From a virus, in IMG/VR virus record IMGVR_UViG_3300029893_000445, positions 1 through 30,260 of that record: DNA of 30,260 nucleotides; one strand, given 5' to 3'. A program made the position numbers and the translations under genes. The notes beneath the pieces were generated by a model. That model saw only the letters and a program-made list of their open reading frames with translations. It was not told the origin of the DNA and searched no databases. Below are positions 7,857-26,412 of the stretch, piece after piece. The stretch's first letter is position 1. Every line of letters begins with the position of its first letter.

Positions 7857-8405
7857 ATGACAAACAGTATGCAACTTAAAAAATCTCCTGTTTTTATTGA
7901 TTCAGAAAAATATAAAAAAAAGCTAAAAGATGAAGAAAACCGCTTTAAACTTGAGATGATGGGGCATGACAATGAAAGTAAATCCATAAGCTTCATTAAT
8001 GAAAATAACGAGCAGATTCTTTTAGAAGAAGCGGAGATTGAATACAAGGGAAAAGAAAAACTTAAAAAGTCGAGGCGTGGCAGGAAATTTAATTATTATG
8101 TTAGGCTTGCTCAGCACTCTATTGAGATGATTGCCAAGTATTCGGATCTGCCAAAGTACTTTAAATGGGGAGTTTATCCGACAAGTGAAGGTGTAGTTTT
8201 TTGGTTAAGAACTTTTGATGAAAAGCCATTTGTAAAGGCAATCAAACCAATCGGGGATCCTCACATAGATCTTATTGGCGGAGTTTATACCTGTATAAGA
8301 GAACTTGAGAATACTGCAATAAGGGAAAGAGATAAGCTTAAAGTCGTGCCAGTTGAGGATGATACTAAACTTAGAAGAACAAAATCAGGAATTATTTTGC
8401 CATGA
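7857..8405 (+). CDS. Unknown protein coupled to the large terminase, 182 aa
   Basis: Not recognised. Basic N-terminal half with coiled character (EKYKKKLKDEENRFKLEM) and a KKSRRGRKFNYYVRLAQHSI segment; the C-terminal half is more globular (KYFKWGVYPTSEGVVFWLRT). The ATG at 7857 fits the promoter at 7819-7847 better than the TTG at 7836. Its stop overlaps the terminase start as ATGA. The position directly before the large subunit is where a small terminase usually sits, but I see no helix-turn-helix or oligomerisation pattern, and the better small-subunit candidate is at 3533-4054. It may be a packaging accessory protein. Confidence 0.6.
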   Translation: MTNSMQLKKSPVFIDSEKYKKKLKDEENRFKLEMMGHDNESKSISFINENNEQILLEEAEIEYKGKEKLKKSRRGRKFNYYVRLAQHSIEMIAKYSDLPKYFKWGVYPTSEGVVFWLRTFDEKPFVKAIKPIGDPHIDLIGGVYTCIRELENTAIRERDKLKVVPVEDDTKLRRTKSGIILP

Positions 8406-10855
8406 AAAAAAGAGGAAGAAAAAAAGGTCAGCCATATATCAAGACAGAGTATGTAAAAAAACGAAAAGTACAGGAGATTATTGAAAGAAGAAAAGTCCTG
8501 CGGGAAAAGAAAAGACAGGCGTGCCTCAAAAACTTTTTTCTTTTTAATAAGTATGTGATGCAGTGGCCAGATCTTTCTGAGCCTTTGCACCATGAGATGT
8601 GCGACTTCATCCAGTTTTCCAAGAAAAATAAAAAGCTAATGTTGGTTGCCAGAGGTCATCTGAAAAGCTCGGTGATTACTGTCAGCTATGCTCTTTGGAG
8701 AATTGCTCAAAATCCAGAAATTAGAATATTTATCGCTAATGCTACTTATAATATGGCGGTTTCGTTTTTAAGCCAAATCAAGTCTGTTATTCAGAAAAAT
8801 GAGATTTATAGAGATCTCTTTGGAGAATTTGATGTTGGTGCAGAAAAGTGGAGCAACGATATGATTAAGGTTGGGACAACTTCTTTTAAAGCCAAGGAAT
8901 CGACAGTAACAGCTTATGGTATGGGAGGGAACCTGGTTGGTCAGCACTATGATTTAATTATTATGGATGATGTGGTTGCCAGGGAGAATATTGGAACTAA
9001 GGAACAGAGGGATAAAACACTTCTTTTTTACAAAGATGCACTTGATCTTTTAGATCCTGGAGGCGAAGTAATTATTATTGGCTGTTTTATTGCGGGAACA
9101 AAAATTTTGATGGCAGATGGGACTTGGAAGAATATTGAGAATGTAAATGCGGGAGAAATGGTTAAAACTAGAAAAGGAGATAAAATTGTAACTACTAATA
9201 TTTTACAGGGGGTATCTGATGTTTACGAATTAAGGACAAATAATGGAAAAATAGTTGGGACTAAAAACCACCCATTTTTAAAAAAAGGGAAGTGGGTAAA
9301 AATGGAAGATTTGAAAAAAGGAAACAAAATTTCTTTTTATTCAGGTAAAAAAGACGGCAGGAAAGATATTTCAAAAGAAATGGCTTGGGCATTGGGATAC
9401 ATGGTTGGAGATGGTTGGGTTACTCTGCATCCAAATTCAAAAGGTAGTATGAGATATGTTGTCGGCATAGCAAGGGGTATTTATAAAGACAGGAACGAAA
9501 AAATAAAAAATATATTTGAGAAAAATTTTGGATGTAAATTCCAAATTAAAAGAAAAAATTGGCATACAACTTGTGCTGAATTGGGCAGGTGGCTTTTAGA
9601 AAACGGACTAGAGAGGGGAGCTAAAAATAAAAAAGTGCCTGATTTTATATTTGAACAAGATTTAGAAAGGAGGGTAAGTTTTATAAAAGGATTTCTTGAT
9701 GCAGATGGCTGGGAGGATAAAGGAAAATATAATGTAAAAAGTTTTTGCTATGAAGTTACAAGTAAAGAATTGGCTGAAGGAATAAGACTTCTTGCAATTA
9801 TTTCTGGTTTAAGGGTAAATAATATTTATTCGAGGAAAAGATTGATTAAAGCTCCAAATTCAAAGGAAGAGTTGATATCAAATACTTATCATTGCCGATT
9901 ATACTTTGGTGAACCTACAAAAGAAGTTTTTGTTCGTTCAATTAAAAAAGTCGGTAAACAGGAGGTTTATGATTTGTCAGTTGAAGGCGAGCATAGCTTT
10001 ATCGCAGAGGGATTTATAGTTCATAACACGACCTGGCATCAGTACGATCTTTATAACTGGATTATGGATGAGGATAGTAAAGTGATCTCAGACTTTGACA
10101 TTTTCGTTAAACCAGCTTATCAAGGAAATTGGGGAGATGGTATTATCTCGTTCCCTGAAAAGTTTAGTTGGAAGCACCTGGAAGAGTTAAAAAGGCAGAA
10201 GGGTCCATCAGAATTCGCAGCTCAATACCTTCTTAATCCAGTTCCAGAAGAATCGGCAATATTTAAAAGGCATTATTTTAAAGAATATGAAGATTGGGAA
10301 ATAAGAGGTAAGCACCTTAATAGGTTTATGGCAGTTGATCCTGCAATCAGTGAGGAGAAGTCAGCAGACTACAGTGCAATCGTTGTTGTCGGGGTTGATG
10401 AATTTGATAATTGGTATATTTTAGATATTTTTGCAGAACGATGTGGAGTTGAAAGATTAATTGGTGAGATTTTTCATTATGCAAATAAACATAGACCAAT
10501 TGAAATTGCACTTGAAATGGAAGCGTATGCTAAATCTTTACAGTACTTTATGAGCGAGGAAATGAAGCGTAGAGGCCAATTCTTACCGATAACAGAGGTT
10601 CGTTCTACCAGAGTTGGAAATGATAAGGAATACAGGATTAAAGCACTTGAGCCAAGATATTTTAATGGATTTATTTATCACAATAAACACGATCCGAAAA
10701 CCAGAGATCTTGAGGAACAACTGACAAGTTTCCCTAAGCAGAGAAATGACGATATTATGGATGCTTTGGCTTACATAAACCAAATTGCTTTCTCACCGAG
10801 GAAGGCGAGGGATAGGGCAAATAGAAGGCAAAAATATTTATATAATAAAACTTAA
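8402..10855 (+). CDS. terL: Terminase large subunit with intein, 817 aa precursor
   Basis: The DNA-packaging motor. The ATPase half has a Walker A-like ARGHLKSS (83-90) and Walker B LIIMDD (185-190). The conserved segment that usually reads 'iiGTrWh.dD' is split by an intein at residues 228-542; after splicing it reads VIIIG-TTWHQYDLYNW. The RNase H-like nuclease half has the acidic residues D646 (FMAVDPAI), E705/E707 (IALEMEA) and D784/D787 (NDDIMDALA). The mature protein would be 502 residues, a normal large-subunit length. The ATG overlaps the previous stop and the TAA is followed at once by the portal ATG, so the packaging genes form one translational unit. Confidence 0.95.
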   Translation: MKKRGRKKGQPYIKTEYVKKRKVQEIIERRKVLREKKRQACLKNFFLFNKYVMQWPDLSEPLHHEMCDFIQFSKKNKKLMLVARGHLKSSVITVSYALWRIAQNPEIRIFIANATYNMAVSFLSQIKSVIQKNEIYRDLFGEFDVGAEKWSNDMIKVGTTSFKAKESTVTAYGMGGNLVGQHYDLIIMDDVVARENIGTKEQRDKTLLFYKDALDLLDPGGEVIIIGCFIAGTKILMADGTWKNIENVNAGEMVKTRKGDKIVTTNILQGVSDVYELRTNNGKIVGTKNHPFLKKGKWVKMEDLKKGNKISFYSGKKDGRKDISKEMAWALGYMVGDGWVTLHPNSKGSMRYVVGIARGIYKDRNEKIKNIFEKNFGCKFQIKRKNWHTTCAELGRWLLENGLERGAKNKKVPDFIFEQDLERRVSFIKGFLDADGWEDKGKYNVKSFCYEVTSKELAEGIRLLAIISGLRVNNIYSRKRLIKAPNSKEELISNTYHCRLYFGEPTKEVFVRSIKKVGKQEVYDLSVEGEHSFIAEGFIVHNTTWHQYDLYNWIMDEDSKVISDFDIFVKPAYQGNWGDGIISFPEKFSWKHLEELKRQKGPSEFAAQYLLNPVPEESAIFKRHYFKEYEDWEIRGKHLNRFMAVDPAISEEKSADYSAIVVVGVDEFDNWYILDIFAERCGVERLIGEIFHYANKHRPIEIALEMEAYAKSLQYFMSEEMKRRGQFLPITEVRSTRVGNDKEYRIKALEPRYFNGFIYHNKHDPKTRDLEEQLTSFPKQRNDDIMDALAYINQIAFSPRKARDRANRRQKYLYNKT
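9083..10027 (+). other. LAGLIDADG intein inserted in the large terminase
   Basis: This 315-residue insertion starts with Cys228 (CFIAGTKILMADG, block A) and ends FIVHN542 followed by Thr543, the standard splice chemistry (Cys1, His-Asn, Thr+1). Block B is GTKNHPF (T287, H290) and block F/G is EVYDLSVEGEHSF...FIVHN. Between them are the two dodecapeptide motifs of a homing endonuclease, LGYMVGDGW (331-339) and IKGFLDADG (428-436), both with the catalytic Asp. It therefore looks able both to splice and to home. Confidence 0.93.
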
Positions 10856-15336: not shown

Positions 15337-16266
15337 ATGGCAGGTAAAACACATTTTTCAGATTTCCTAGAACCAGGATTAAGGGAGATTTATTTTGATG
15401 AATATCGTACTCTCCCTCAGCAATATGACAAGATCATAGAGGTTTTGGATTCTTCAAAACAGGATGAAACCGATTCTGGTATTTCAGGATTTGGTTATTT
15501 TCGTCAGTCATCTGATGGAAATCCTTTGCAATATGAGGATCCAGTACAGCTTTATGATGTAACTTATACTCATTTGACTTGGAAACTTGGATTTAAAGTT
15601 ACCAAAGAAATGTATGACGATGATCAATACAATACGATCAATAGGCTTCCCAAACTTTTGGCTCGTGCAGCTCAAAGAACTCTTGAGAATCAGGCAGCAA
15701 CTATATTCAGAAGGGCATTTGACACTAGTTATCCTGGTGGTGATGGTAAACCCTTAATGTCTACTGGACATTTGCGAGCTGATGGAGGTTCAAGCCAGTC
15801 TAATGCTTCTGCAACTGGTATAGCTTTGAATGACGATAATCTTGAAACTGCATTAATTGCTCTTTCAGAACAACTTGATCATAAGGGGATGCTTACAGGT
15901 ACAATGGCAACTGATATTTTAGTACCACCTGATTTGAAGAAAGAAGCAAGAATTTTGGTTGAATCTCCGATGAGGCCAGAATCAGCAGATAATGATATCA
16001 ATGTCTATAAAGGTGAAATGAATGTAATCTCTTGGCCTTGGATTGGTGGAGCTGCACAAAACGGGTCCCGAACATGGTGGTTCTTAATGGATAAGACCTA
16101 TCATAGATTGAAAATGTACTTTAGAGAACGACCAAACTTTGAGAATGATTCTACTTTTGATACTGATGAAGCACTCTTTAAAGGCAGAATGAGATTCTCC
16201 GTAGGATTCAGCGATTGGTATGGGACCTGGGGCAGTAAGGGCGACGGTTTAGCATACTCCAGCTAA
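15337..16266 (+). CDS. Major capsid protein (HK97 fold, Mu gpT-like), 309 aa
   Basis: The main shell subunit. Sequence features resemble the Mu gpT-type capsid family: an N-terminal region through EIYFDEYRTLPQQYDKI, a P-domain helix with TYTHLTWKLGFKVTKEMY, an E-loop-like Gly/Ser segment (STGHLRADGGSSQSNASATG), LNDDNLETALIALSEQ, a conserved 'ILVPPDLKKEARIL' spine, and the C-terminal KGRMRFSVGFSDWYGTW. Length of about 310 residues is normal for the family. It is preceded by its own promoter and followed by a strong terminator, as expected for the most abundant phage protein. No delta-domain protease is fused or adjacent. Confidence 0.85.
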   Translation: MAGKTHFSDFLEPGLREIYFDEYRTLPQQYDKIIEVLDSSKQDETDSGISGFGYFRQSSDGNPLQYEDPVQLYDVTYTHLTWKLGFKVTKEMYDDDQYNTINRLPKLLARAAQRTLENQAATIFRRAFDTSYPGGDGKPLMSTGHLRADGGSSQSNASATGIALNDDNLETALIALSEQLDHKGMLTGTMATDILVPPDLKKEARILVESPMRPESADNDINVYKGEMNVISWPWIGGAAQNGSRTWWFLMDKTYHRLKMYFRERPNFENDSTFDTDEALFKGRMRFSVGFSDWYGTWGSKGDGLAYSS

Positions 16267-16284: not shown

Positions 16285-16309
16285 AAGGCTCGAAGGAGCC
16301 TTTTTTTTT
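16285..16309 (+). terminator. Rho-independent terminator after the capsid gene
   Basis: A perfect 7-bp stem AAGGCTC / GAGCCTT with a GAAG loop (16285-16302) runs into a nine-T tract (16301-16309). It is the clearest terminator in the window and isolates the capsid transcript from the Ser/Thr-tail genes. Confidence 0.92.
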
Positions 16310-16321
16310 GGTCTAAAAGAC

Positions 16322-16350
16322 TTGACATAATTGTTAGGCTTTAGCATACA
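16322..16350 (+). promoter_or_regulatory. Leaderless promoter of the Ser/Thr-tail gene
   Basis: TTGACA (16322-16327), 17 bases and CATACA (16345-16350) predict a start two bases before the ATG at 16359; it follows the capsid terminator directly. Confidence 0.6.
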
Positions 16351-16358
16351 AGAAATAT

Positions 16359-16751
16359 ATGGGAGCAACTCATTTTAGGAAATTAGCTGGATTAGTTAGA
16401 TCCGATTCTCGACCTTCTTCACCCCAGACTGGTGAACTTAGGTGGGATGATACTAATAAGGTTTGGGAAGTCTATGATGCTTCCGTTTGGCGTGGGGTTG
16501 GTTTTTCAACGTCGACTACAACGAGTACTTCAACTTCGTCAACCAGTTCTAGCACAAGTTCTAGTACAAGTTCGACTACTAGTACATCAAGTAGCACAAG
16601 TTCTAGCACAAGTTCTAGTACAAGTTCGACAACGACATCGACAAGTTCGACAACCACATCTAGTTCGACATCTAGTTCGACCAGTACATCAAGTAGCACA
16701 AGTTCGACAACGACAAGTTCAAGTACATCAACCAGTACAACGACAGTATAA
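16359..16751 (+). CDS. Virion-like protein with an 80-residue pure Ser/Thr tail, 130 aa
   Basis: Two parts. Residues 1-49 form a small folded module (THFRKLAGLVRSDSRPSSPQ then GELRWDDTNKVWEVYDAS) whose 'P..GElR.n.tn.lEvY....W.G' pattern is common in phage tail-fibre and virion proteins. Residues 50-129 are exclusively Ser and Thr, followed by a final Val. No bacterial or phage enzyme family has such a tail; it resembles a mucin domain, the classic acceptor of O-linked sugars. It has its own leaderless promoter after the capsid terminator, and a paralogue follows at once. With five glycosyltransferases downstream, an O-glycosylated surface protein is the natural inference, but is unproven. Confidence 0.7.
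   Translation: MGATHFRKLAGLVRSDSRPSSPQTGELRWDDTNKVWEVYDASVWRGVGFSTSTTTSTSTSSTSSSTSSSTSSTTSTSSSTSSSTSSSTSSTTTSTSSTTTSSSTSSSTSTSSSTSSTTTSSSTSTSTTTV
16506..16745 (+). repeat. Ser/Thr-coding low-complexity repeat DNA
   Basis: The tail of the preceding gene is built from imperfect tandem units of AGT/TCG/ACA-type codons. A 32-base segment at 16545-16576 recurs exactly at 16599-16630 (54-base offset), and a 23-base segment at 16581-16603 recurs at 16683-16705. All offsets are multiples of three, so slippage changes tail length without breaking the frame. Confidence 0.85.
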
Positions 16752-16753
16752 GC

Positions 16754-16782
16754 TTGACATTGTTACTAGTGTTGATTACACA
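16754..16782 (+). promoter_or_regulatory. Promoter of the second Ser/Thr-tail gene
   Basis: TTGACA (16754-16759), 17 bases and TACACA (16777-16782) predict a start about five bases before the ATG at 16794. Confidence 0.5.
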
Positions 16783-16793
16783 ATAGATATAAT

Positions 16794-17000
16794 ATGGCAA
16801 GAAGTAGTGGAACACATTTTAAAAAGCTCGCAGGTCTTATCAGGACCGAATCAAGACCGACAGCTCCTCGTAATGGAGAAATGAGGTTAAATTTGACAAA
16901 TAACGTTCTGGAAGTGTACTCTACTAGTAGCAGTGCATGGTATGGAATTGCATTAACCACCTCCACCAGTTCTTCAACCAGCACTACAACGAGTGCTTAA
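16794..17000 (+). CDS. Short paralogue of the Ser/Thr-tail protein, 68 aa
   Basis: The first 54 residues align with the 16359 gene (THFKKLAGLIRTESRPTAP against THFRKLAGLVRSDSRPSSP; EMRLNLTNNVLEVYSTS against ELRWDDTNKVWEVYDAS), showing a tandem duplication. Its tail is only 13 residues of Ser/Thr before a final Ala, so the module itself is the conserved part and tail length varies. Probably the same location in the virion as its neighbour. It has its own leaderless promoter; the next gene starts three bases after its stop. Confidence 0.7.
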   Translation: MARSSGTHFKKLAGLIRTESRPTAPRNGEMRLNLTNNVLEVYSTSSSAWYGIALTTSTSSSTSTTTSA

Positions 17001-17003
17001 AAG

Positions 17004-17636
17004 ATGATTTATTTACATAACCCAGAGATCGGAGGATCCGACATAATTGACTATGTTGTAGGCGAACCAGGCCGAAGCAGAAGATATAACTTCAAGAAAG
17101 GTGAAACTTGGGGCTTTGAAGATGAGGTTGCCCATTACTTCATAAGAGTTTTTGGTGTTAGAGGCGGAGAGCAACATGGTTTAATGGAGGGCTTTTTGGA
17201 AATAGTTGATCCTCAAAAAGTTACTACATCTGAGCCAGTTAAAGCAGAAATAAAAGAAATTGAAAAAGATGGAAAAATTCTTTATGAATGTAGTATTTGT
17301 GGTTATACTCACAGAAAGAAAATAGGCGTTTCGTCGCATGCCAGAATAAAACACGCAGACGAATTAACAAAAACCAAAGTTGATAATTTTAAAATCCAAG
17401 AAGGCGATGCGGTTGTACCTCCAGAAGAAATTGATAGACTAAGGCGTGCAAGGCAGGAAATAACTAGCATGAAACCTAAAAGATCATTAGCTGATTTGAG
17501 GCCAAAAAGTGAGGATGAGATCGGCTACAGACAGCCAGACAGAAGGCTTGACTTTAATGATAGTGGTATGAATACTAATCCTCAAATGGCCAGACACTTT
17601 TATGGGCCAGGTTTAGAGGAGGATACAGAAGTATGA
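17004..17636 (+). CDS. C2H2 zinc-finger-containing protein, 210 aa
   Basis: Residues 1-75 are a small domain of unknown type (NPEIGGSDIIDYVVGEPGRS). A classical C2H2 finger follows near residue 95: CSICGYTHRKKIGVSSHARI then KH, i.e. C-x2-C-x12-H-x4-H. The C-terminal third is basic and disordered, with LRRARQEITSMKPKRS and a QPDRRLDF motif. C2H2 fingers are uncommon in phage structural blocks. By position between the Ser/Thr-tail proteins and a small virion-like protein, it may be a head-tail or DNA-contacting virion protein, but this is only context. It overlaps the next gene by ATGA. Confidence 0.6.
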   Translation: MIYLHNPEIGGSDIIDYVVGEPGRSRRYNFKKGETWGFEDEVAHYFIRVFGVRGGEQHGLMEGFLEIVDPQKVTTSEPVKAEIKEIEKDGKILYECSICGYTHRKKIGVSSHARIKHADELTKTKVDNFKIQEGDAVVPPEEIDRLRRARQEITSMKPKRSLADLRPKSEDEIGYRQPDRRLDFNDSGMNTNPQMARHFYGPGLEEDTEV

Positions 17637-17923
17637 AAACAGTATTTCCGCCAGCAACAAGAGTAGTTTCAGGAACATCAGATGGATCTCTTTATTCTGG
17701 TGCAGGTTTAATTACGACCATAGGAGTTGATCCAGAAGGAGGAGCTTGTGAGATTACAGTAAGGGATGGAGATGCTTCTGGTTCGCTTCTTTGGAATATG
17801 TCCACCGCAGCTGATGGCGAATACAGGGGTCAATCTTTTAAGGGTATCGGATTTAATAAGGGCATCTACCTTCAAGTTTCTGGCACAGGTAGAGGCTTAG
17901 TAGAATTTATCAAAAAAGTCTAA
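17633..17923 (+). CDS. Small beta-rich virion-like protein, 96 aa
   Basis: A compact, all-beta protein with Gly-rich turns (SGTSDGSLYSGAGLITTIGV, EITVRDGDASGSLLWN, KGIYLQVSGTGRGLVEF). The 'GLI.....TVyDG..sG..LW......G....F.gi.f.kGiYl.vSGTG...V' pattern recurs in small phage structural proteins of unknown exact role, so virion localisation is likely. AGGAGG lies about 10 bases before the ATG, which overlaps the preceding stop. Last gene of the structural block before the HNH endonuclease. Confidence 0.55.
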   Translation: MKTVFPPATRVVSGTSDGSLYSGAGLITTIGVDPEGGACEITVRDGDASGSLLWNMSTAADGEYRGQSFKGIGFNKGIYLQVSGTGRGLVEFIKKV

Positions 17924-17956
17924 ACCAGCTCCCACTTGCCTCCATACAAGACTATT

Positions 17957-18685
17957 ATGCAAGGCGGAATTAAGAAAACTAAAGTTTGTATTGATTGTGG
18001 TATTGATGTTACTCCAAAAAGCAAGAGATGCCGTTTATGTTGGTTTAAAGTTAAGAAGGCTCCTTGGTTGAAAAAATATCGGTTTGAAAAAGGACACATT
18101 CCTTGGTTAAAAGGCAAAAGTGTTCAAACTAATACTGGTAAAACTCATTTTAAGAAAGGGCATAAGTTGAATTTTGGTAAAAAGAGGCCCGATATGTCTA
18201 TAGCACAGAAAGGAAAAAGACTTCCTGCTTTGGCATATACTAATTCTCAAAAAAGGTTAAAAGAGTTGGGTTATCCAAACAGAACAGGAAAAAAACATTT
18301 ATTAGAAACTAAGAAGAAAATTTCTGAAAGTAGAAAAGGTAAGGCAATTGGCAGAAAAAATGTAAATTGGAAAGGCGGGGTTACTTCAATTAAATCTTTA
18401 GTTAGGAATTTACCAGAGTATAGTGAATGGAGAAATGGTGTTTTTGAAAGAGATAATTATACTTGTTATAAATGTGGTAAAAGGGGTGTGTATCTCGAAG
18501 CTGATCATTATCCTGTTTTATTTGCTAAACTTTTACAAGAAACCATTAATTTATATGGTAAAAATATTGAAAAAATAAGGAAATATGAGCCGTTGTGGGA
18601 TATAAATAATGGAAGGACTGTTTGTAAAAAAGATCATAAAAGGGTTTTTGCGGGAAATCAATACATGGGAGGAATTTATTTATGA
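17957..18685 (+). CDS. HNH homing endonuclease with NUMOD3-type repeats, 242 aa
   Basis: A free-standing mobile endonuclease. An N-terminal zinc knuckle pair (C11/C14, C25/C28) is followed by several NUMOD3-like DNA-binding motifs (FEKGHIPWLKGKS, FKKGHKLNFGKKR, TKKKISESRKGK) and a C-terminal HNH nuclease: WRNGVFERDNYTCYKCGKRG, EADH (181-184), NNGRTVCKKDHK with N217/N218 and H227. All expected metal and catalytic residues are present, so it looks active. The ATG at 17957 is preferred to a TTG at 17936. It ends in an ATGA overlap with the first glycosyltransferase, so it rides on that operon; it marks the junction between structural and glycan genes. Confidence 0.85.
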   Translation: MQGGIKKTKVCIDCGIDVTPKSKRCRLCWFKVKKAPWLKKYRFEKGHIPWLKGKSVQTNTGKTHFKKGHKLNFGKKRPDMSIAQKGKRLPALAYTNSQKRLKELGYPNRTGKKHLLETKKKISESRKGKAIGRKNVNWKGGVTSIKSLVRNLPEYSEWRNGVFERDNYTCYKCGKRGVYLEADHYPVLFAKLLQETINLYGKNIEKIRKYEPLWDINNGRTVCKKDHKRVFAGNQYMGGIYL

Positions 18686-19962
18686 GAACAAAAGTTTCGA
18701 TAAATACAACTTTTAATCAGTTTGATCCCGCATATTCCTTAATTAATGTTGTGGAAGATCAGATTAGGATGCTTCGTTTTGCTGGATACTCTCCAGTCGT
18801 TTTGGTTCAAGAGGGATTTAAGCCAGAAGGAGAATTTAAGAATGTAGAGCTTCGGGAATTGCCTTCAGTCAGAGTTTATAACGAAGTTAAGGTGGATGAT
18901 ACTTTTGAGGAAGATCAAGAAGCGCTTTATAAAGCGATGAAAAAATATCTTGAAGATATTAAAGTAGTTATTACTCACGATTGGATTTATCAGCCAGATG
19001 CTCTTAAGCACCAGGTTGCAGCAAGACGTATAGCCAAAGAGGATTCAGGTAAACGCTGGCTTCATTGGATTCATTCTGCGACTACTCCGTTCATACTTGC
19101 AACCCAGAGAGGTGGAGGCAATAAGTTTATGGATATGATTCACGAGGAATGGCCTAATAGCTATATTTGTTTTCCTAATTCTTATTCTATTCCAAGGGTT
19201 GCCAGTCATTACAATGTTTCTGAGGATAGGGTAAAAACTGTTCATCATCCTACGGATATCCCTTCATTTTTTGGTTTTGACGAAACCGAGTTTAAATTTT
19301 GGAGAGAGAAAAAATTATGGCTTGCAGATGCGATAGCGGTTGCCCCAGCCAGGCTTGACAGGGGTAAACAGATTGAGTGGGTAATCAAGATTATGGCTGC
19401 ACTTAAACACGAAGGTCAGCAGGTTAGGGTAATTGTGGTAGACTTTCATTCAACTGGAGGTGATAAGGTTAATTATCGGGAGGAGCTTAAACAAATTGGA
19501 ATTGATTGGGGATTAAATCCCCTTGAGCTTTCTTTCACTTCTGAGTTTTCAGATAAGTGGGGAACGAGAGTACCCAGAAAAACAGTAGATAATTTCTTTG
19601 CAGTATCAAATGTTTTTATCCTTCCATCGAGAAGCGAAACATATTCTCTAGTTGCACAAGAGGCAGCGCTTCGGGGTAATTTGCTTGTGTTAAATAAAGA
19701 CTTCCCTCCATTCAGGGATATTTATGGGCCTTCCGCTTTGTATCATCCTTTTTCAAGTAACATCGACAAGATGACTGGTATGGATGGTGAAACTACAACC
19801 TCATATACTTCGGAGCGGGATTTTGCAATAGAGGTTGCAAGAGAAATTAAATATCATTTAGAGAACGATTTTGCTCTTAAAATGAGGACAAAGTTAAGGA
19901 AAGAAAGAACTGTCGAAGCTGTTGCTCAGAATGAATTTATACCGATAATTGAGGGTATATGA
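18682..19962 (+). CDS. GT-B glycosyltransferase (GT4-like), 426 aa
   Basis: Transfers a sugar from an activated nucleotide donor. The C-terminal Rossmann half has the retaining GT4 signatures: AIAVAPARLDRGKQIEWVIK at 217-236 and an E-x7-E pair, E319/E327, in RSETYSLVAQEAALRG. The N-terminal half binds acceptor (ITHDWIYQPDALKH with the usual early 'HDW', then WLHWIHSATT). No signal peptide or membrane segment, so it is cytoplasmic. A strong GGAGGA lies 8 bases before the ATG. It opens the overlapping gene run that continues to 24190. Acceptor unknown. Confidence 0.85.
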   Translation: MRTKVSINTTFNQFDPAYSLINVVEDQIRMLRFAGYSPVVLVQEGFKPEGEFKNVELRELPSVRVYNEVKVDDTFEEDQEALYKAMKKYLEDIKVVITHDWIYQPDALKHQVAARRIAKEDSGKRWLHWIHSATTPFILATQRGGGNKFMDMIHEEWPNSYICFPNSYSIPRVASHYNVSEDRVKTVHHPTDIPSFFGFDETEFKFWREKKLWLADAIAVAPARLDRGKQIEWVIKIMAALKHEGQQVRVIVVDFHSTGGDKVNYREELKQIGIDWGLNPLELSFTSEFSDKWGTRVPRKTVDNFFAVSNVFILPSRSETYSLVAQEAALRGNLLVLNKDFPPFRDIYGPSALYHPFSSNIDKMTGMDGETTTSYTSERDFAIEVAREIKYHLENDFALKMRTKLRKERTVEAVAQNEFIPIIEGI

Positions 19963-20738
19963 GAGATGACGCTGTAGTTATAGGGGGAAAAGGCACTGTA
20001 GGAAGGGCGACACGAAAGGCTTTAAATATTAAATATTATTTCGATAAAAAGGGTTCAAATATTAGCCTTAATGAAGCTCATCATAAGTGTCTTTTTGTTT
20101 TTATATGCCTACCTACTCCTGTAGTTGAGGGTGAATATAAAACCGAAGAAATAACTGGAATTGTCAGGCAGATGGCAAGTATGGGCAGTCGTAATATTTT
20201 TGTGATCCGCTCTACAGTTGCTCCAGGATACGGCAAATGGCTTCACAGTAAATTTGGAGTTCCAGTTGTTAGTCATCCAGAGTTTGGGAATGAGGACAGT
20301 ATGCTTGATGACATGAAGAATCCAGACTTAGTTGTTTTGGGTGCAGATGCAGATTCTTATTGGGCGCTTGAGCGTGTCAGAAATAAATTTTATGCAGATA
20401 TTGATTCATCAAAACTGATTTCAACTGATAACTCTACAGCAGAACAGATTAAAGTAACTCTCAATGCGTTTTATACAATGAAGGTTATTTTTGCCAATGA
20501 AGTTTATGATAATTGTGAGAGGACAATGGCTAATTATGAGCTTGTTAAGTATGCTCTTGAACATAACCGCTACGGAAGCAAAAATCATTTTGATATTTTT
20601 CATAAAGGCGGAAGGGGAGCAGGGGGTCGTTGCCTTCGTAAGGACTTTGAGTTTTTTTCAAACTTTACCAATTCGGAACTGTTTAAAGTTGCAAATAGAA
20701 TTAATATAAAGTTATTAGAAAGTACAAACAAAAAATGA
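19959..20738 (+). CDS. Compact UDP-glucose/GDP-mannose dehydrogenase-like protein, 259 aa
   Basis: Family members oxidise a nucleotide sugar twice to the uronic acid. Seen here: an NAD-binding start (VVIGGKGTVGRATR), FICLPTPVVEG (48-58), IRSTVAPG (83-90), SHPEFGNED, the central NSTAEQIKVTLNAFYTMKVI with the conserved Lys and Asn, and the thiohemiacetal cysteine C225 in GGRGAGGRCLRKD (usual form 'GpGFGGSCfpKD'). The protein stops soon after, so the C-terminal nucleotide-sugar domain (roughly 130 residues) is absent; typical enzymes are about 400-450 aa. It may be a minimal phage form, may need a partner, or may have changed activity. Coupled by ATGA to genes on both sides. Confidence 0.78.
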   Translation: MRDDAVVIGGKGTVGRATRKALNIKYYFDKKGSNISLNEAHHKCLFVFICLPTPVVEGEYKTEEITGIVRQMASMGSRNIFVIRSTVAPGYGKWLHSKFGVPVVSHPEFGNEDSMLDDMKNPDLVVLGADADSYWALERVRNKFYADIDSSKLISTDNSTAEQIKVTLNAFYTMKVIFANEVYDNCERTMANYELVKYALEHNRYGSKNHFDIFHKGGRGAGGRCLRKDFEFFSNFTNSELFKVANRINIKLLESTNKK

Positions 20739-21463
20739 ATAAGTTTTCTGTAATTCTCCCAGTTTATAACAGAGCGCATTTTTTGCCTCGTGCTATTAAT
20801 TCACTCCTTACCCAGACTTATGGAGAATGGGAGCTGATTGTTGTTGATGATGGATCGACTGATAATATTGATGATGTGATGAAATTTTATAATACTGATG
20901 ATAGGATTTTTTATATCAAACAAACTGGTCATTTTGAACGTGTTAGAGCGCAAAATTTGGGTTTTAAACTTGCTACTGGTAATTGGCAGACTTGGCTTGA
21001 TAGTGATGATGTTTTTCTCCCTACTTACTTTGAAACAGTAAATGCAGCAATTTATAAATATGGGGATTTTGATGTGTGTAATTTTGGGGCAATTGTAATT
21101 CACGATGATTACAATGTTTCGATAAGACCAACATTCAAGCCTGAAAGAACGGAAACAGGCCATGTGGCTTTTGGAAGCGGAGATATTGGGGCTGGATCTT
21201 TTGTGTATAAGACTGAGGTTTGGAATAACCTTAAGTATTTTGGTGATACTCATTTCCCAGAAGTTAATAATCCTTATGAATTTGCTGATGCAGCCAAGGA
21301 GAAATTTCCTGAGCTAATACAATTTTTTGGAGAAAGAGAATTGGGAAATCCTTGGGGAAACGATGCATTGGCGTTTTTTATGCTTACTAGAAATCACTAT
21401 TCTCGGCCATTGGATACGGCACTTTATGTGCAATTAGGTAAGAATATTAAACAATGGCCTTAA
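20735..21463 (+). CDS. GT-A glycosyltransferase, family 2 type, 242 aa
   Basis: A family 2 inverting-type fold: FSVILPVYNRAHFLPRAINS, ELIVVDDGSTDN with the nucleotide-binding Asp pair, RAQNLGFKLATGNWQTWLDSDD with the DxD-like metal site, then a GAGSFVYKTEVW acceptor-side segment. Cytoplasmic; no membrane helices. It overlaps its neighbours by a few bases on both sides (ATGA upstream, ten bases downstream). Acceptor and sugar unknown. Confidence 0.88.
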   Translation: MNKFSVILPVYNRAHFLPRAINSLLTQTYGEWELIVVDDGSTDNIDDVMKFYNTDDRIFYIKQTGHFERVRAQNLGFKLATGNWQTWLDSDDVFLPTYFETVNAAIYKYGDFDVCNFGAIVIHDDYNVSIRPTFKPERTETGHVAFGSGDIGAGSFVYKTEVWNNLKYFGDTHFPEVNNPYEFADAAKEKFPELIQFFGERELGNPWGNDALAFFMLTRNHYSRPLDTALYVQLGKNIKQWP

Positions 21464-22404
21464 TACCAGTTTCTAAACCTCAATATGATGTACGAGATGA
21501 GAAGCTTCTTAAAGAAGTGGTATCTTCTGGTAATTGGGTTCGGGGAGGAAATTTTGTCAGGATTTTAGAATATGAGTTTGCTCAATATGTGGGTGCTAAA
21601 TATGCAATAGCGGTTTCTTCTTGGCCTATTGCGCTTTATCTGGTTTTGAAAAATATCTATATGCGAAGCCAGGTGTTAAAGATTCCTACCTGTACTTATG
21701 TTGGAATTGTTAATGCAGTAAAGCAGGCTAATTGCAGGTATCAGCTTATTGATGAGATTTTTGTTGGTAAACCATACCAGATTGCCCCTCTTACTATTTG
21801 GGATAGTTCATATGAGATCAAAAAAAATCAGGGTTTTTCCAGTGCTGTTTATTCTTTTTATCCCACAAGGCAAATTGCTTCTTTTGATGGGGGAATGATT
21901 ACCACCAATATAAAAGATTCTGCTATTTGGTTTAGGCGGGCTAGAATGGGAGGAAGAAAAGACAATGTTTATAGTTGGGATTATGATGTTGAATTTGCTG
22001 GTTATAGGGCAGAAATGACAGAAGTACAAGCAGCGCTTGCACTTTCTCAATTAAGAAAAATTGAAGAGAATGATGAAAAGAGGCGCAATATTGTCAGAAA
22101 ATACAATGAGAGGTTGGGAGAAAAAAATAGCAGTTTGACAATATTTCCAATTTTAGTTCAGGATAGAGAAGGATTTATTGAATTTGCAAGACAACGTGGA
22201 TTTGAAGTATCTGTGCATTTTAAACCCCTCCATTGGTTAAAAGCTTACAAAATTCTTAGATACAGATATCCTTTTCCAAAGTCAGATGAATGGGGTAAAC
22301 GTGAGGTGAGTTTGCCTCTATTTCCTGATATGACAGAAGAAAATATTGACACTGTATGTAATGCAGTATTAGACTGGAAGGAGAAAGAAAATGCAAAAAA
22401 TTGA
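21454..22404 (+). CDS. DegT/DnrJ/EryC1/StrS aminotransferase homologue lacking the PLP lysine, 316 aa
   Basis: Normal members use PLP to transaminate keto-nucleotide sugars. Family blocks are clear: PVSKPQYDVRDEKLLKEVV, YAIAVSSWPIALYLVL (normally 'SGTaAL'), IWDSSYEI (cofactor Asp), YSFYPTRQIASFDGGMITT, and YRAEMTEVQAALALSQL. The internal-aldimine Lys should be where 'FyPTKnl' is; here residue 139 is Arg (codon AGG, 21868-21870). Direct transaminase activity is thus doubtful. Some family members with a replaced Lys act as PLP-dependent dehydratases (His in ColD), but Arg is not a known substitute. It could be regulatory, structural or decayed by one A-to-G change. Length is about 50 residues below average. 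Confidence 0.8.
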   Translation: MALIPVSKPQYDVRDEKLLKEVVSSGNWVRGGNFVRILEYEFAQYVGAKYAIAVSSWPIALYLVLKNIYMRSQVLKIPTCTYVGIVNAVKQANCRYQLIDEIFVGKPYQIAPLTIWDSSYEIKKNQGFSSAVYSFYPTRQIASFDGGMITTNIKDSAIWFRRARMGGRKDNVYSWDYDVEFAGYRAEMTEVQAALALSQLRKIEENDEKRRNIVRKYNERLGEKNSSLTIFPILVQDREGFIEFARQRGFEVSVHFKPLHWLKAYKILRYRYPFPKSDEWGKREVSLPLFPDMTEENIDTVCNAVLDWKEKENAKN

Positions 22405-23113
22405 TATTGTTATTACTGCGTGGCTTAGGGAGAATATGTCTAGGTGGTGTATTGAAGCTATTAAAAAAAATACTACTACTCCATATAGGTTGATTGTTAT
22501 TGATAATGATTCTGATAGATTTACCAGAGAATTCTTTTTAGAAAATGCTCATGTTTATGTTAAGTTAGACAGAAATCGAGGATTGGAATATGCCAAATGG
22601 CTTGGGATGCAGTTTGTAGAGAGTGATTTGTTTGTTTCTACGGATAATGATATTTTGGTTTACAAATACGATGAAAAGGATTGGTTACAAAGATTGATTG
22701 ATTTAATGAATAAATATCCTGAATATGGCGCTATTGCTCCTAGGCCACAAGTATTAGTTGGTACAAGCATGGAAATGTTTAATACTGATAAAGAAATTGT
22801 TGATTTTGGTCATGTGCCAGGATATGCAAGAATAATGCGTACAGAATGGGTAAGAGAGGTTGGGGCTTGGAATGATAAAAGACCGCTTCGAGGGCATGAA
22901 GAATTATGGATTGGAGAAAAATTTAAGGATAAAGGTTATAAAATGGCTTGGGCAAAAGACATTGAATGTTATCATCTCTTTGGGGATGATGAACATGATG
23001 GATGGGGTTATGCTAAAAATATTTCTCCAGAAAATCATGGACATAATGAAGTTTCTTCGCTTCCTAAAAATGATCCCAAATTAATATTTAAAAAAACTGG
23101 GATTAAGATATGA
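22391..23113 (+). CDS. GT-A glycosyltransferase, 240 aa
   Basis: Family 2-like: DIVITAWLRENMSRWCIEAI, YRLIVIDNDSDRFTREF (donor-binding Asp), RNRGLEYAKWLGMQF, VSTDNDILV (DxD-like), then RGHEELWIGEKFKDKGYKM, where 'HEElwigek' takes the place of the usual 'EDvdlg.R' base region. A GGAAGGAG ribosome binding site lies 5-6 bases upstream, inside the aminotransferase homologue. Coupled downstream by ATGA to a methyltransferase, suggesting that one builds a sugar and the other methylates it. Cytoplasmic. Confidence 0.82.
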   Translation: MQKIDIVITAWLRENMSRWCIEAIKKNTTTPYRLIVIDNDSDRFTREFFLENAHVYVKLDRNRGLEYAKWLGMQFVESDLFVSTDNDILVYKYDEKDWLQRLIDLMNKYPEYGAIAPRPQVLVGTSMEMFNTDKEIVDFGHVPGYARIMRTEWVREVGAWNDKRPLRGHEELWIGEKFKDKGYKMAWAKDIECYHLFGDDEHDGWGYAKNISPENHGHNEVSSLPKNDPKLIFKKTGIKI

Positions 23114-23676
23114 GTGAAAGAATATATGTTGATGAGGAGCGCTGGGATGATGGTCCAAGTAGAGCGCATTTGTTCCGCTACTATGTGGCGAGAGGTTTTA
23201 TCGAGTCTACAGATCGGATAAATGATTTTGCTTGCGGTTGCGGATATGGCAGTGCCATTTTAGCAAGAGTAGCAAAACAAGTTGTTGGTTTTGATTATGA
23301 ACCAGAGGCAATTAGACATGCTCAAGAAACTCACGATGCTGAGAATATAATTTTTGGAATTTCCGATTTTAATACTGAACGATCTTTTCCTGAATGTGAT
23401 GTTACTGTTTCTATTGAAACAATTGAACACTTAAAAGATCCTGTCCGATTTGCAAAACTTATTAAAGAATCTACCAAAAGATTGATATTTTTAACTACTC
23501 CGATAATTCCCACAAAGCACGAAAATCCACACCATTTACAAGATTTTACTCCTGGGCAGATTGAGGCTTTATTTATAGATGATCAGTGGAAGCCCTTTCA
23601 CTCATACGCTCAGGGGGCGCATGGAGGATCGGCTTATGGAGGATTTATATTTTATAGAAATAATGGAAGCGTCTAA
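23110..23676 (+). CDS. SAM-dependent methyltransferase, class I, 188 aa
   Basis: Class I Rossmann methyltransferase: motif I DFACGCGYGSAILARVA (usual 'DvGCGtG'), the acidic residue after strand 2 in VVGFDYEPEAIRHA, motif at DVTVSIETIEHLKDP, and LIFLTTPIIPTKHENPHH. The last motif is typical of ubiE/SAM-MT type 11 enzymes that act on small molecules or glycans. Embedded in the glycan operon, it most probably O-methylates a sugar. Overlaps the next gene by 14 bases. Confidence 0.82.
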   Translation: MSERIYVDEERWDDGPSRAHLFRYYVARGFIESTDRINDFACGCGYGSAILARVAKQVVGFDYEPEAIRHAQETHDAENIIFGISDFNTERSFPECDVTVSIETIEHLKDPVRFAKLIKESTKRLIFLTTPIIPTKHENPHHLQDFTPGQIEALFIDDQWKPFHSYAQGAHGGSAYGGFIFYRNNGSV

Positions 23677-24190
23677 AATTTGGGAACTCGTTAAAGATCA
23701 GAAATGGCAAACCGAAGAAAATATCTCGGATCTTGTTGCTTTGGCAAAAAATATCTCAGATGTTAATGGCATTATTGTTGATATCGGTATAGGTGGTGCA
23801 ACTAGCGCTTGTGCTTTAGCTCTTGCTTCTGGGTGTCCAGTCTATAGCATTGGTGAGCAGGTCGCTCCAATTGCAGTTAATACTGTTATTAGGCTTGGTC
23901 TTGAAGGAAGAGTGTTTTTTTGTGCTGGGGAATCTGATAATGTTTGGAAGAATTGGGATCGGCTTGTAAATTTAGTTTTTATTGATGGGCTGCACACTTA
24001 TGATGCTGTAACAAGTGATGCAGAGAAGTGGAGTGATTGGATTAAACTTGGAGGGATTTTAGCTTTCCACGATTATGATCTTTACAGAAATACAGTTGGT
24101 AAGGCTATTGATGAATTTTATGAAAAACACAAAGAGGATTATAAACCCCTTAAAACTGGTTTTAATATTAAAGCATTTCAAAAAATATGA
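23663..24190 (+). CDS. Class I methyltransferase (Methyltransf_24-like), 175 aa
   Basis: The ATG at 23663 (MEASKIWELVKDQKW) is chosen; the frame stays open to 23579, but that part shadows the previous gene. The core is GIIVDIGIGGATSACALALA (SAM-binding loop), VYSIGEQVAP, then VFIDGLHTYDAVTSDAEKW and GGILAFHDYD. The 'DG.H.Y..v..D...w...l..GG.l.fHDyd' pattern is that of the Methyltransf_24 type often found in glycan and natural-product clusters. Probably a sugar or glycan methyltransferase. Confidence 0.8.
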   Translation: MEASKIWELVKDQKWQTEENISDLVALAKNISDVNGIIVDIGIGGATSACALALASGCPVYSIGEQVAPIAVNTVIRLGLEGRVFFCAGESDNVWKNWDRLVNLVFIDGLHTYDAVTSDAEKWSDWIKLGGILAFHDYDLYRNTVGKAIDEFYEKHKEDYKPLKTGFNIKAFQKI

Positions 24191-24267
24191 AGATGCTTCC
24201 GATTGAAAAATATCGAGCTGGTAGGCTTGGAATAAGCGGATTTATTGGTATAATTCTAAAAAATTAA
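24187..24267 (+). CDS. Very short ORF after the methyltransferase, 26 aa
   Basis: An ATG overlapping the methyltransferase stop (ATGA) opens MKMLPIEKYRAGRLGISGF..., 26 residues with a slightly hydrophobic end. The coupling resembles its neighbours, but length and lack of a known family make it weak; it may be a remnant of a longer gene that filled the gap to 24306. Confidence 0.25.
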   Translation: MKMLPIEKYRAGRLGISGFIGIILKN

Positions 24268-24270
24268 TTT

Positions 24271-24300
24271 TTGGCACTCTTTGATGATAAGTGCTAATTA
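24271..24300 (+). promoter_or_regulatory. Candidate leaderless promoter inside the glycan island
   Basis: TTGGCA (24271-24276), 18 bases and TAATTA (24295-24300) predict a start at the ATG 24306. Weaker match than the others, but in the only gap of the island's first half. Confidence 0.4.
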
Positions 24301-24305
24301 AAAAA

Positions 24306-25268
24306 ATGAAACTTTATATAGTCGATCACTTAGGAGATCACAGAACAACACAGCAAATAGAAAACTGGTTTTCGTCAAAAGGCCATGAAGTAAAGTGGAC
24401 ACGCTATTGGGAACCAGAATGGGGAAAGTGGTGCGACACTTGTTTGTTTGCCTGGACTGAGGGGATGCTTCAAAGAGCGCTTGATCCAAGTATCCCTGAA
24501 AATAAAGGCGAAGATATTTTAAAAGATAAAAGAGTTGTTACTTACTTGATGGATATTGAAATGTGGGCGCAGCAATTCAATGGAACTCCTTGGGACAAGG
24601 TTGATGGATTGGCATATTGCAGTCAGTATATTTATGATGTTTTTGTTAAAGAGGCAGGACTTACTAATAATGTTGAAGTTGCCCATATTCCTCTTTCTTA
24701 CAATATGGATGATTGGACTTTCAGAGATAACAGAAATCCTGGTGGTAGAAATATTGCAGTGATTGGTCATATGTGGGCAGCTAAGGGAGTACAAATGCTT
24801 CCTGAGTTTTTATATCGGTTGATAAAACAAACCAATGATTCAAGTTGGAAAGTTTTTGTGCAAGGGGAATGGCGACACGATGTTTGGCGCTGGTTTAATC
24901 ATTATGTCAGAAACCAATTAAAGGATTTAGGGTTGGAAGAAAATGTAATAATTACTGAGGATAAAGTTCCGTCAATTGATACTTGGCTGGAGGATAAAGA
25001 TTATTTGATTACTTTTTCGATGAAAGACGCTTTTTCTTTGATTGTTGGAGAAGCTCTTGCAAAAGGGATCCCTGCATATCCTCATAATTTTCCAGGAGCG
25101 CAAGATATTTGGGGGGACTATACATGGAAAACAATTGATGGTTTAATTTATACAATGCTTAATCGACCAAAACCTGCAAACGATCACCGCTTTTTTGTTG
25201 CGTCAAGATATTCAAATGAAGAAATTATGCCTAAATGGGAAGCTTTATTGAGGCTAACGACCTCATAA
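24306..25268 (+). CDS. GT-B glycosyltransferase, 320 aa
   Basis: GT4-like fold with a GT-B layout: short N-terminal half (LYIVDHLGDHRTTQQIENWF, RVVTYLMDIEMWAQQF), linker at RNIAVIGHMWAAKGVQMLPE (149-168), and the donor site ITFSMKDAFSLIVGEALAKG, in which D241 replaces the first Glu of the E-x7-E pair and E249 is the second. The PAYPHNFPGAQDIWG that follows is the usual phosphate-binding segment. The ATG at 24306 is chosen over GTG at 24291 on promoter grounds. Cytoplasmic. Substrate unknown. Confidence 0.78.
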   Translation: MKLYIVDHLGDHRTTQQIENWFSSKGHEVKWTRYWEPEWGKWCDTCLFAWTEGMLQRALDPSIPENKGEDILKDKRVVTYLMDIEMWAQQFNGTPWDKVDGLAYCSQYIYDVFVKEAGLTNNVEVAHIPLSYNMDDWTFRDNRNPGGRNIAVIGHMWAAKGVQMLPEFLYRLIKQTNDSSWKVFVQGEWRHDVWRWFNHYVRNQLKDLGLEENVIITEDKVPSIDTWLEDKDYLITFSMKDAFSLIVGEALAKGIPAYPHNFPGAQDIWGDYTWKTIDGLIYTMLNRPKPANDHRFFVASRYSNEEIMPKWEALLRLTTS

Positions 25269-25306
25269 AATCAATTCTAAGGGGTGTCTAAAACAAAAGA
25301 TAATAT

Positions 25307-25843
25307 ATGAATCAAAGATTTATAGTTCGCAGCGATGATCTGGATCCAAGAATTACTTTGGAGGATTTAAAACCCATCCATGAGAAATTTTTGCGGGCAA
25401 ATATTCCTTTTACTATTGCTGTTAATAATGCGATGAATGAGCTTCGGGAGTTTCGACCAGAAGTAATTGACTATGTAAATAATACTTCGGGGTGGGATAT
25501 ACAACTACATGGCTGGCATCACGATGCTTACTTTCCAATGCGTTGGCCAGATGTTTATGTGAATCTTGTTGCAAATATTCACGACACAAAGAGGGATTTT
25601 AAAAATGCGGATCCGAAAGTTTTTTACCCTCCTTGGAATGAAGGAAGCGAAACTGTCGAAAAAGTTTGCAAAAAGCTGGGGCTTAGAATGGATACATCTG
25701 GTATCCATATGCGTTATTGGTTTAAATGGAAAAGGAGGGACAGTAATGTTTTGTTTTTTCATTGGTGGGATAAAAGCGATATTGAAATTTTGGATGATGT
25801 ACTAAAGGAGGTAAAAAACTATTATGGGGATACCATATATTGA
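25307..25843 (+). CDS. Polysaccharide deacetylase-like (NodB fold) protein, 178 aa
   Basis: Removes N- or O-acetyl groups from sugars. NodB motifs are visible in order: the catalytic/metal Asp pair in FIVRSDDLDP, the metal histidines in QLHGWHHDAYF (HxxxH-like), and the FYPPWNEGSETVEKV loop (usual 'fRpPyG'), then LGLRMDTSG. At 178 aa it is short but contains the core; it resembles the DUF2334/deacetylase branch. No signal peptide, so it would act in the cytoplasm, on precursors or on finished glycan before lysis. The last 20 bases overlap the next gene and contain its AAAGGAGGT ribosome binding site. Confidence 0.72.
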   Translation: MNQRFIVRSDDLDPRITLEDLKPIHEKFLRANIPFTIAVNNAMNELREFRPEVIDYVNNTSGWDIQLHGWHHDAYFPMRWPDVYVNLVANIHDTKRDFKNADPKVFYPPWNEGSETVEKVCKKLGLRMDTSGIHMRYWFKWKRRDSNVLFFHWWDKSDIEILDDVLKEVKNYYGDTIY

Positions 25844-26378
25844 TCCAGTAAAAAATACAAAAGGCAGGGAGTACATTAATCGTATTGTAATTCCAAGGTT
25901 TGCTGAAAGATTTAAAGATCAGGATTTGGTTATTAATGTTGGCAAGCATAGGCTTTGGGATTATTCTTCTTTCTTTAACAGACCAGACAAGTTTGTAGAA
26001 TATAAAAGCCTGGATATTGCAGAGGGTGAAGAACCAGATATTGTTGATAATATTTTAGCCTCCACCTTACCAGACAACTATTGTGAGGGTGTAATTTATG
26101 TGGGGATGGATTGGGATATTGATAACAACGAACAAGCCTTAAAAGAGATCAGAAGAATCTTAAAGCCAGGAGGCTCGGTTGCGATTAGCTTAGCAGCACC
26201 AGGAGATACCAGAGGTGGAAAAGTTTGGACTTTTAATGAAGCCTTAGAGATGGTAAGAAAAGAATTTTTGATTGACGAGATCCATATTGCTTATGGGCCA
26301 ATTCAGCCTGGAGCACCACTTTACAGTGAGGGAGATCCGATTGCTTGGTTTTTTGTAGCTAGAAAAACAACCTCTTGA
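25824..26378 (+). CDS. Class I methyltransferase-like protein, 184 aa
   Basis: The C-terminal half is a standard class I methyltransferase end: NNEQALKEIRRILKPGGSVA then ISLAAPGD, as in 'l.ei.RvLkpGG'. The N-terminal SAM loop is degenerate: DLVINVGKHRLWDYSSFF instead of 'vLDvGcG.G', followed by YKSLDIAEGEEPDIVDN (acidic residue of strand 2 and motif II). It may still bind SAM, or may be a modified relative. A near-perfect AAAGGAGGT lies about 11 bases before the ATG. Confidence 0.68.
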   Translation: MGIPYIDPVKNTKGREYINRIVIPRFAERFKDQDLVINVGKHRLWDYSSFFNRPDKFVEYKSLDIAEGEEPDIVDNILASTLPDNYCEGVIYVGMDWDIDNNEQALKEIRRILKPGGSVAISLAAPGDTRGGKVWTFNEALEMVRKEFLIDEIHIAYGPIQPGAPLYSEGDPIAWFFVARKTTS

Positions 26379-26404
26379 CAAATGGGTGGGTTATTCCTTA
26401 TATT
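26375..26404 (+). promoter_or_regulatory. Leaderless promoter of the epimerase gene
   Basis: TTGACA (26375-26380), 18 bases and TATATT (26399-26404) predict a start two bases before the ATG at 26413. It overlaps the methyltransferase stop. Confidence 0.6.
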
Positions 26405-26412
26405 AAAAGGAA

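Follow-up and report, generated by a model that had tools for sequence, protein, structure and literature searches.

A phage reading frame that encodes only serine and threonine over 80 consecutive residues, just behind the capsid gene and upstream of a block of glycan genes, raises the question of what such a tail is for and whether the neighboring enzymes act on it. We addressed this question in the window, the whole 30,260-base virus record that was analyzed. Its rightward gene order comprises the terminase large subunit (with an intein), the portal, a small protein, a scaffold-like protein, a 182-aa head-region protein, and the major capsid protein. Downstream of the capsid gene lie two small open reading frames (ORFs; 16359-16751 and 16794-17000), each encoding a bead of ~50 residues and then a Ser/Thr tail, followed by two more small genes, an HNH-like insertion, and a 10 kb glycan island (18682-28903). 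The features around the tailed genes are the following:

15337-16266 (+), major capsid protein of the Mu gpT / Phage_capsid_4 type (PF25209, E 8e-17; PF10124; phrog_371)
16285-16302 (+), terminator-like hairpin with a T run, 3′ of the capsid gene (computed scan)
16359-16505 (+), bead domain (49 aa) of Ser/Thr-tailed protein 1 (37 homologous beads aligned; three strands by AF2)
16506-16751 (+), 80-residue Ser/Thr-only tail, terminal Val, and stop (translation, codon analysis)
16794-16955 (+), bead domain of Ser/Thr-tailed protein 2, a paralog that is 55% identical
16956-17000 (+), 13-residue Ser/Thr tail, terminal Ala, and stop
17633-17923 (+), small protein of the structural region, of a kind whose homologs bear a Ser/Thr tail in loci L208 and L219 (head swap)

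The first tailed ORF encodes 130 aa, of which residues 50 to 129 are exclusively Ser (46) and Thr (34), followed by Val and the stop codon; the 49-residue module and the 80 Ser/Thr-only residues of the original prediction are thus confirmed. Within 16359-17000 that prediction described one protein, whose ORF is indeed present, but a second gene built in the same way lies in the interval as well. The prediction further placed the 16359 gene after the major capsid gene and its terminator, in agreement with the profile matches and the hairpin listed above, and gave it a promoter of its own, which we could not uphold: no plus-strand sigma-70-like site passed the scan, and the TTGACA at 16322 has a poor second hexamer. 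At the nucleotide level the tail uses nine codons, its longest homopolymer is 2, and it contains one pair of adjacent identical codons compared to 10.2 ± 2.5 expected from protein-preserving codon shuffles (0 of 5,000 as low), which together rule out a repeat-slippage artifact. The 134-base WSN pattern of the tail was not matched in 100 shuffles, and no C-terminal Ser/Thr run of at least 10 residues occurred in 120 random viral loci (1.02 Mb).

Elsewhere in the window, the terminase gene (8402-10855) is split by an intein that includes parts of a LAGLIDADG-type homing endonuclease (PF14890, PF14528), and a small minus-strand ORF (1006-1302) has short repeats of the NFxGxNF type and resembles pentapeptide-repeat proteins. 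The HNH-like insertion is an ORF at 17936-18685 that separates the structural genes from the first gene of the island; it was recognized by eye as HNH-endonuclease-like, has no Pfam match, and shows weak similarity to one clade record only.

Relatives were sought in viral contigs. Single-sequence or two-sequence-alignment queries with the capsid protein, the bead, or the paralog returned none or unrelated ones. A scan of the viral contig collection with a 30-codon Ser/Thr pattern containing 14 fixed A's gave two loci with the layout of the window, L051 and L113 (capsids 54-55% identical), and an alignment of the three capsids yielded 37 loci. Records with a capsid identity of at least 47% and enough downstream DNA have, shortly after the capsid gene, between one and three tandem genes for Ser/Thr-tailed proteins, in most of which a small bead domain precedes the tail; across this tailed clade the capsid identity is 47-56%. 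The window is a member of a previously undescribed clade of uncultured phages. The original prediction described a single tailed protein; its tail is real, but the trait is clade-wide and common to the relatives. Behind the capsid gene of relatives with a capsid identity below 40%, Ser/Thr-tailed genes were absent. In several cases the post-capsid product of these relatives starts with a similar motif, T-x-F-[ST]-G, as in L011 (annotated by its depositors as a "cement protein"), L162, and L165, and this common N terminus hints that the beads may dock on the particle through it. The capsid tree can be explained by either one or two changes in the tail trait, and the uncertain placement of the untailed sister phages (L161 to L165), which lie on long branches, means that joint loss of the tail and its partner enzyme (below) is not separable from original absence.

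We then compared the tails themselves. Among 101 distinct tails from 41 loci, 5,211 of 5,259 residues (99.1%) are Ser or Thr. The remaining residues are mainly Ile, Leu, Val, and Gln, the commonest last residue is Val, Leu, or Ile, and Pro, Gly, Asp, and Lys do not occur once; with no Pro among the 5,259 residues, we dropped the term mucin in its strict Pro-Thr-Ser sense. In nine pairs of same-length diverged tails, the codon differences comprised 170 synonymous changes, 32 exchanges between Ser and Thr, and 1 other change, so that 202 of 203 were synonymous or Ser/Thr exchanges. Random substitution would give ~30% synonymous changes, 10% Ser/Thr exchanges, 57% other changes, and 2% stops. Because the codon changes are almost all of the first two kinds, the feature under selection is, as read from these comparisons, a hydroxyl at every position. 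Tail lengths cluster near 18, 40-44, and 76-105 residues in several of the loci L135 to L160, and the second and third paralogs keep tails of ~39 and ~41 residues across diverged genomes.

The protein in front of the tail can be exchanged. The head in L202 to L204 is unrelated, only 33 aa long, and carries a tail of 102 residues. L208 and L219 have one tailed protein of the 17633 kind (the L208 and L113 proteins match by blastp at E 1e-4), and in L151/L201 another, longer protein ends in a 93-residue tail. Both the tail and a GT4-type glycosyltransferase, encoded by the first gene of the glycan island, persist across these head swaps. The island comprises five glycosyltransferases, a nucleotide-sugar dehydrogenase, an aminotransferase, an epimerase, a deacetylase-like protein, and three methyltransferases, arranged as follows:

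18682-19962 (+), GT4-type retaining GT-B glycosyltransferase (PF00534; AF2 GT-B fold; EX7E motif)
19959-20738 (+), compact UDP-glucose/GDP-mannose dehydrogenase-like protein (PF00984, PF03721)
20735-21463 (+), GT2 glycosyltransferase (PF00535, E 7e-30), with relatives in most clade records
21454-22404 (+), DegT/DnrJ/EryC1-type sugar aminotransferase (PF01041, E 3e-44), a variable island part found in few clade records
22391-23113 (+), GT2 glycosyltransferase (PF00535), in most clade records
23110-24190 (+), two methyltransferases, 23110-23676 and 23579-24190 (PF13847/PF08241, PF13578)
24291-25268 (+), second GT4-type glycosyltransferase (PF13692)
25307-26378 (+), polysaccharide-deacetylase-like protein and methyltransferase (PF10096, PF08241)
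26413-27384 (+), NAD-dependent sugar epimerase/dehydratase (PF16363, E 9e-54; PF01370)
27377-28903 (+), GT2 glycosyltransferase with a long N-terminal extension (PF00535), 36-47% identical in most clade records

The 426-aa product of the first of these genes, referred to below as GT4, follows the tails closely. Orthologs (45-53% identical) were found in all 18 tailed clade records that extend far enough (one short match at a contig end) and in none of 10 untailed sister records. The clade fragments without GT4 (G007, G013, G017, G021, and G023) stop 0-880 bases past the capsid gene, and L051, which has only 880 bases of downstream sequence, lay outside this search. In the reciprocal search, starting from GT4, 47 of 48 viral loci had Ser/Thr-tailed ORFs 0.05-6.3 kb upstream, compared to such tails in 0 of 120 random viral loci, and at the 48th (L236, record G020) the tailed ORFs lie elsewhere on the same contig (L156). 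Relatives with the tail but without glycosyltransferases, the outcome named beforehand as speaking against glycosylation, were looked for; instead the same GT4 was present in all 18 records and GT2 in all 17 long ones. Since every tailed clade record with enough sequence keeps GT4 and an enzyme-first search finds the tails, the idea that the island may glycosylate the tail now has strong comparative support. The pairing mostly reflects a single origin retained along one clade rather than many independent gains, and several records are near-copies, so the records counted here are not independent. We note that in G020 the capsid and Ser/Thr genes are near the contig start and the glycosyltransferase island is on the opposite strand ~15 kb away, an arrangement due to rearrangement or misassembly.

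Outside these contigs GT4 is rare. None of 50,697 phage records matched it, and 84,980 species genomes gave a single match, which lies on a 4.5 kb contig assembled from a metagenome and perhaps of viral origin itself. The enzyme has the hallmarks of a retaining GT-B member of its family, namely the Glycos_transf_1 domain, an EX7E motif (E319-X7-E327) that is invariant in 17 aligned sequences, and, in the AF2 model (pLDDT 88), a GT-B fold near many retaining enzymes, a predicted fold that fits a protein, sugar, or lipid acceptor alike. A profile search against PDB sequences gave no match. Taken together, these data suggest that GT4 is the core partner of the tails and a candidate for the initiating enzyme.

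The rest of the island is partly conserved. Most clade records have the dehydrogenase and three GT2 genes, whereas the aminotransferase, the epimerase, and several tailoring genes differ between records. All 17 long tailed clade records encode GT2 enzymes, compared to 7 of 50 random viral records, but some untailed sister records also have one to three, so that the presence of GT2 alone is not specific. The dehydrogenase was detected in 16 of 17 clade records by tblastn and in 12 of 13 by profile, and is absent from G024. It is compact (259 aa, and 247-275 in relatives), with no UDP-binding C-terminal domain reported, and this form recurs across most clade records. The GT2 at 27377-28903 has ~190 extra N-terminal residues that are absent from its clade relatives (~300 aa). 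The spike-like ORF behind it (28980-30260) runs off the window end, contains a 72-base tandem repeat (30039-30240), and has a 75% identical match in record G022. The Polysacc_synt flippase (PF01943) and the Bac_transf priming transferase (PF02397), as expected of lipid-linked polysaccharide or O-antigen systems, were found in 0 of 13 records, with control bacterial genomes positive. The island proteins of the window are predicted to be soluble, with a hydrophobic stretch in one methyltransferase. The absence of these two enzymes together with the predicted solubility would fit sequential, cytoplasmic protein glycosylation.

We also examined the bead. AF2 gave a confident three-stranded fold (mean pLDDT 84), for which the VIA structure comparison returned weak scores (Z 2.5-3.4), mostly to trimerization elements; the best of these weak matches were CBA120 TSP3, the collagen XVIII and XV trimerization domains, and the Mtd N terminus, all with a small three-stranded arrangement like that of the bead. 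One clade bead also had a weak match to PF18454 (Mtd_N, E 0.03). Foldseek matches were all above E 0.001, those in the viral structure library being phage fiber-like proteins. By profile, the bead was matched at E ~7e-4 in PHROGs (1325, 24138, and 25721) and had no match among PDB sequences. Phage fiber proteins with RPxxPxxGxLxY...W beads (T4-like cyanophage proteins and the ctn9Y15 fiber type) have this domain in common with the window proteins but continue into Gly-rich or other domains, in place of a Ser/Thr tail. L003 and L004 are likewise fiber-type proteins, with a similar bead alone in common. From these weak fold matches the bead may form trimers, which would place three tails at one point. 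The position of the genes, the bead shared with fibers, and the N-terminal motif of sister post-capsid proteins suggest that the tailed proteins are part of the virion.

On these grounds we consider it likely that enzymes of the phage itself O-glycosylate the tails in the cytoplasm, the tails being dedicated acceptors that form a brush on the virion. In this mechanism GT4 would put the first sugar on the tail hydroxyls, the GT2 enzymes would lengthen the glycan, and the nucleotide-sugar and tailoring genes would determine its chemistry; the bead, a small and possibly trimer-forming domain, would anchor the tailed protein to the particle, and the finished virion would thereby display the glycan brush on one to three kinds of bead. 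What we infer here is the acceptor role of the tail, the order of the enzymes, the virion location, the trimerization, and the use of the brush, which according to the original prediction could be masking, adhesion, or protection from proteases. We also lean, somewhat less firmly, toward a broader reading of the head swaps, in which the Ser/Thr-only tail is a movable glycosylation tag on interchangeable virion heads that is read by one GT4 and yields a dense brush. To our knowledge, phage glycosyltransferases are common and their acceptors rarely known; here, comparative genomics names one candidate acceptor and one enzyme and makes virion glycosylation testable with two genes. If the proposal holds, the phage would have a minimal system for protein O-glycosylation, with an acceptor of extreme simplicity, that could serve to study the glycan brushes of environmental viruses and as a tool for dense O-glycan polymers.

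The alternative that fares best, though we regard it as unlikely, is that the tails stay unmodified and serve virion appendage proteins as flexible or extended spacers, or as polar brushes, and that the island has another target. Ala, Gly, Asn, or Pro would be acceptable in such a spacer, whereas the tails change almost only by synonymous or Ser/Thr substitutions; the alternative is favored by the frequency of Ser/Thr-only tracts as inter-domain linkers in environmental phage proteins (at least 120 matches) and by the 35 of 50 non-clade records with such tracts that have no GT2. The clade tails, however, are C-terminal, and one specific GT4 is kept in every testable record and across the head swaps. 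Less probable still is that phage DNA or, for superinfection exclusion, the host surface receives the sugars of the island, whose adjacency to the tailed genes would then reflect conserved gene order only. Phage glycosyltransferases for both targets are known, according to the summary in PMC12619734, and the island does lie within a conserved block, but surface-polysaccharide systems differ in having the flippase and priming transferase missing here, the island of the window has no clear membrane enzyme, and GT4 accompanies the tails even across a 5.7 kb gap or on a rearranged contig. That the tails are functionless low-complexity by-products of repeat expansion we hold to be highly improbable, as short tandem units of 12 and 21 bases are detectable but the codon diversity, the near absence of adjacent identical codons, and the purity across 101 tails under strong purifying selection contradict it.

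Glycosylation of the tails, as proposed, would fit the cytoplasmic O-glycosylation of bacterial serine-rich adhesins. These proteins (SRRPs) are surface adhesins exported by an accessory Sec system, and their O-glycosylation is cytoplasmic and sequential, by a GtfA/GtfB core and accessory glycosyltransferases (PMC7661464). The likeness lies in a Ser/Thr-rich low-complexity acceptor, a dedicated glycosyltransferase in the same locus, and a core with variable accessory glycosyltransferases; the Ser-rich acceptor encoded beside its enzyme corresponds here to the Ser/Thr-only tails beside GT4. Unlike GtfA/GtfB, which bear an inserted DUF1975 domain (PMC8561734), the phage GT4 matched neither DUF1975 nor GtfA, and the Pfam and NCBIfam scans returned generic GT4 families only. 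Accessory Sec families (SecA2/SecY2/Asp), which would be unexpected in a phage, had no match among the scanned island proteins of the window. Staphylococcus SdgB glycosylates Ser-Asp repeat adhesins at a D-S-D acceptor motif (PMC8561734). Like SdgA/SdgB, the phage system would pair a GT-B enzyme with a monotonous Ser-containing repeat, and SdgB is among the fold matches of GT4 (Z 14.9, rmsd 16.7, 335 aligned), but it is tied with many other GT-B enzymes, the fold match shows no membership, and the phage tails contain no Asp. By the families tested, the phage GT4 is outside the GtfA/SdgB type. Mycobacteriophage virions are glycosylated at the C termini of capsid and tail-tube subunits, a modification described as shielding (Freeman et al. 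2023, as summarized in PMC12619734); in the clade, by contrast, the candidate glycans would sit on the Ser/Thr-only tails of separate small bead proteins. As in phage virion glycosylation, glycosyltransferase genes are co-retained with the putative acceptor. This comparison suggests a phage-encoded system for virion protein glycosylation, in which the new part would be a dedicated, movable, Ser/Thr-only acceptor tail; we found no description of such phage tails in the open-licence literature.

Outside the clade, a Ser/Thr tract alone does not imply glycosylation. Among non-clade records with long Ser/Thr tracts, 15 of 50 had GT2, compared to 5-7 of 50 random, shorter records, and with this weak enrichment we dropped the tracts as a general marker of glycosylation. 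On unrelated viral contigs (L025, L095, and L103), proteins with a different small head (NNPGVHPRLREWL..) likewise terminate in a tail of pure Ser/Thr or Thr, which may be an independent instance of C-terminal hydroxyl tails. Two further unrelated contigs, those of L048 (45,984 bp) and L031 (33,444 bp), encode Ser/Thr tracts of 358 and 146 residues, respectively, with four to five GT2 genes per contig, and are candidate cases bearing on an association of tracts with glycosyltransferases beyond the clade.
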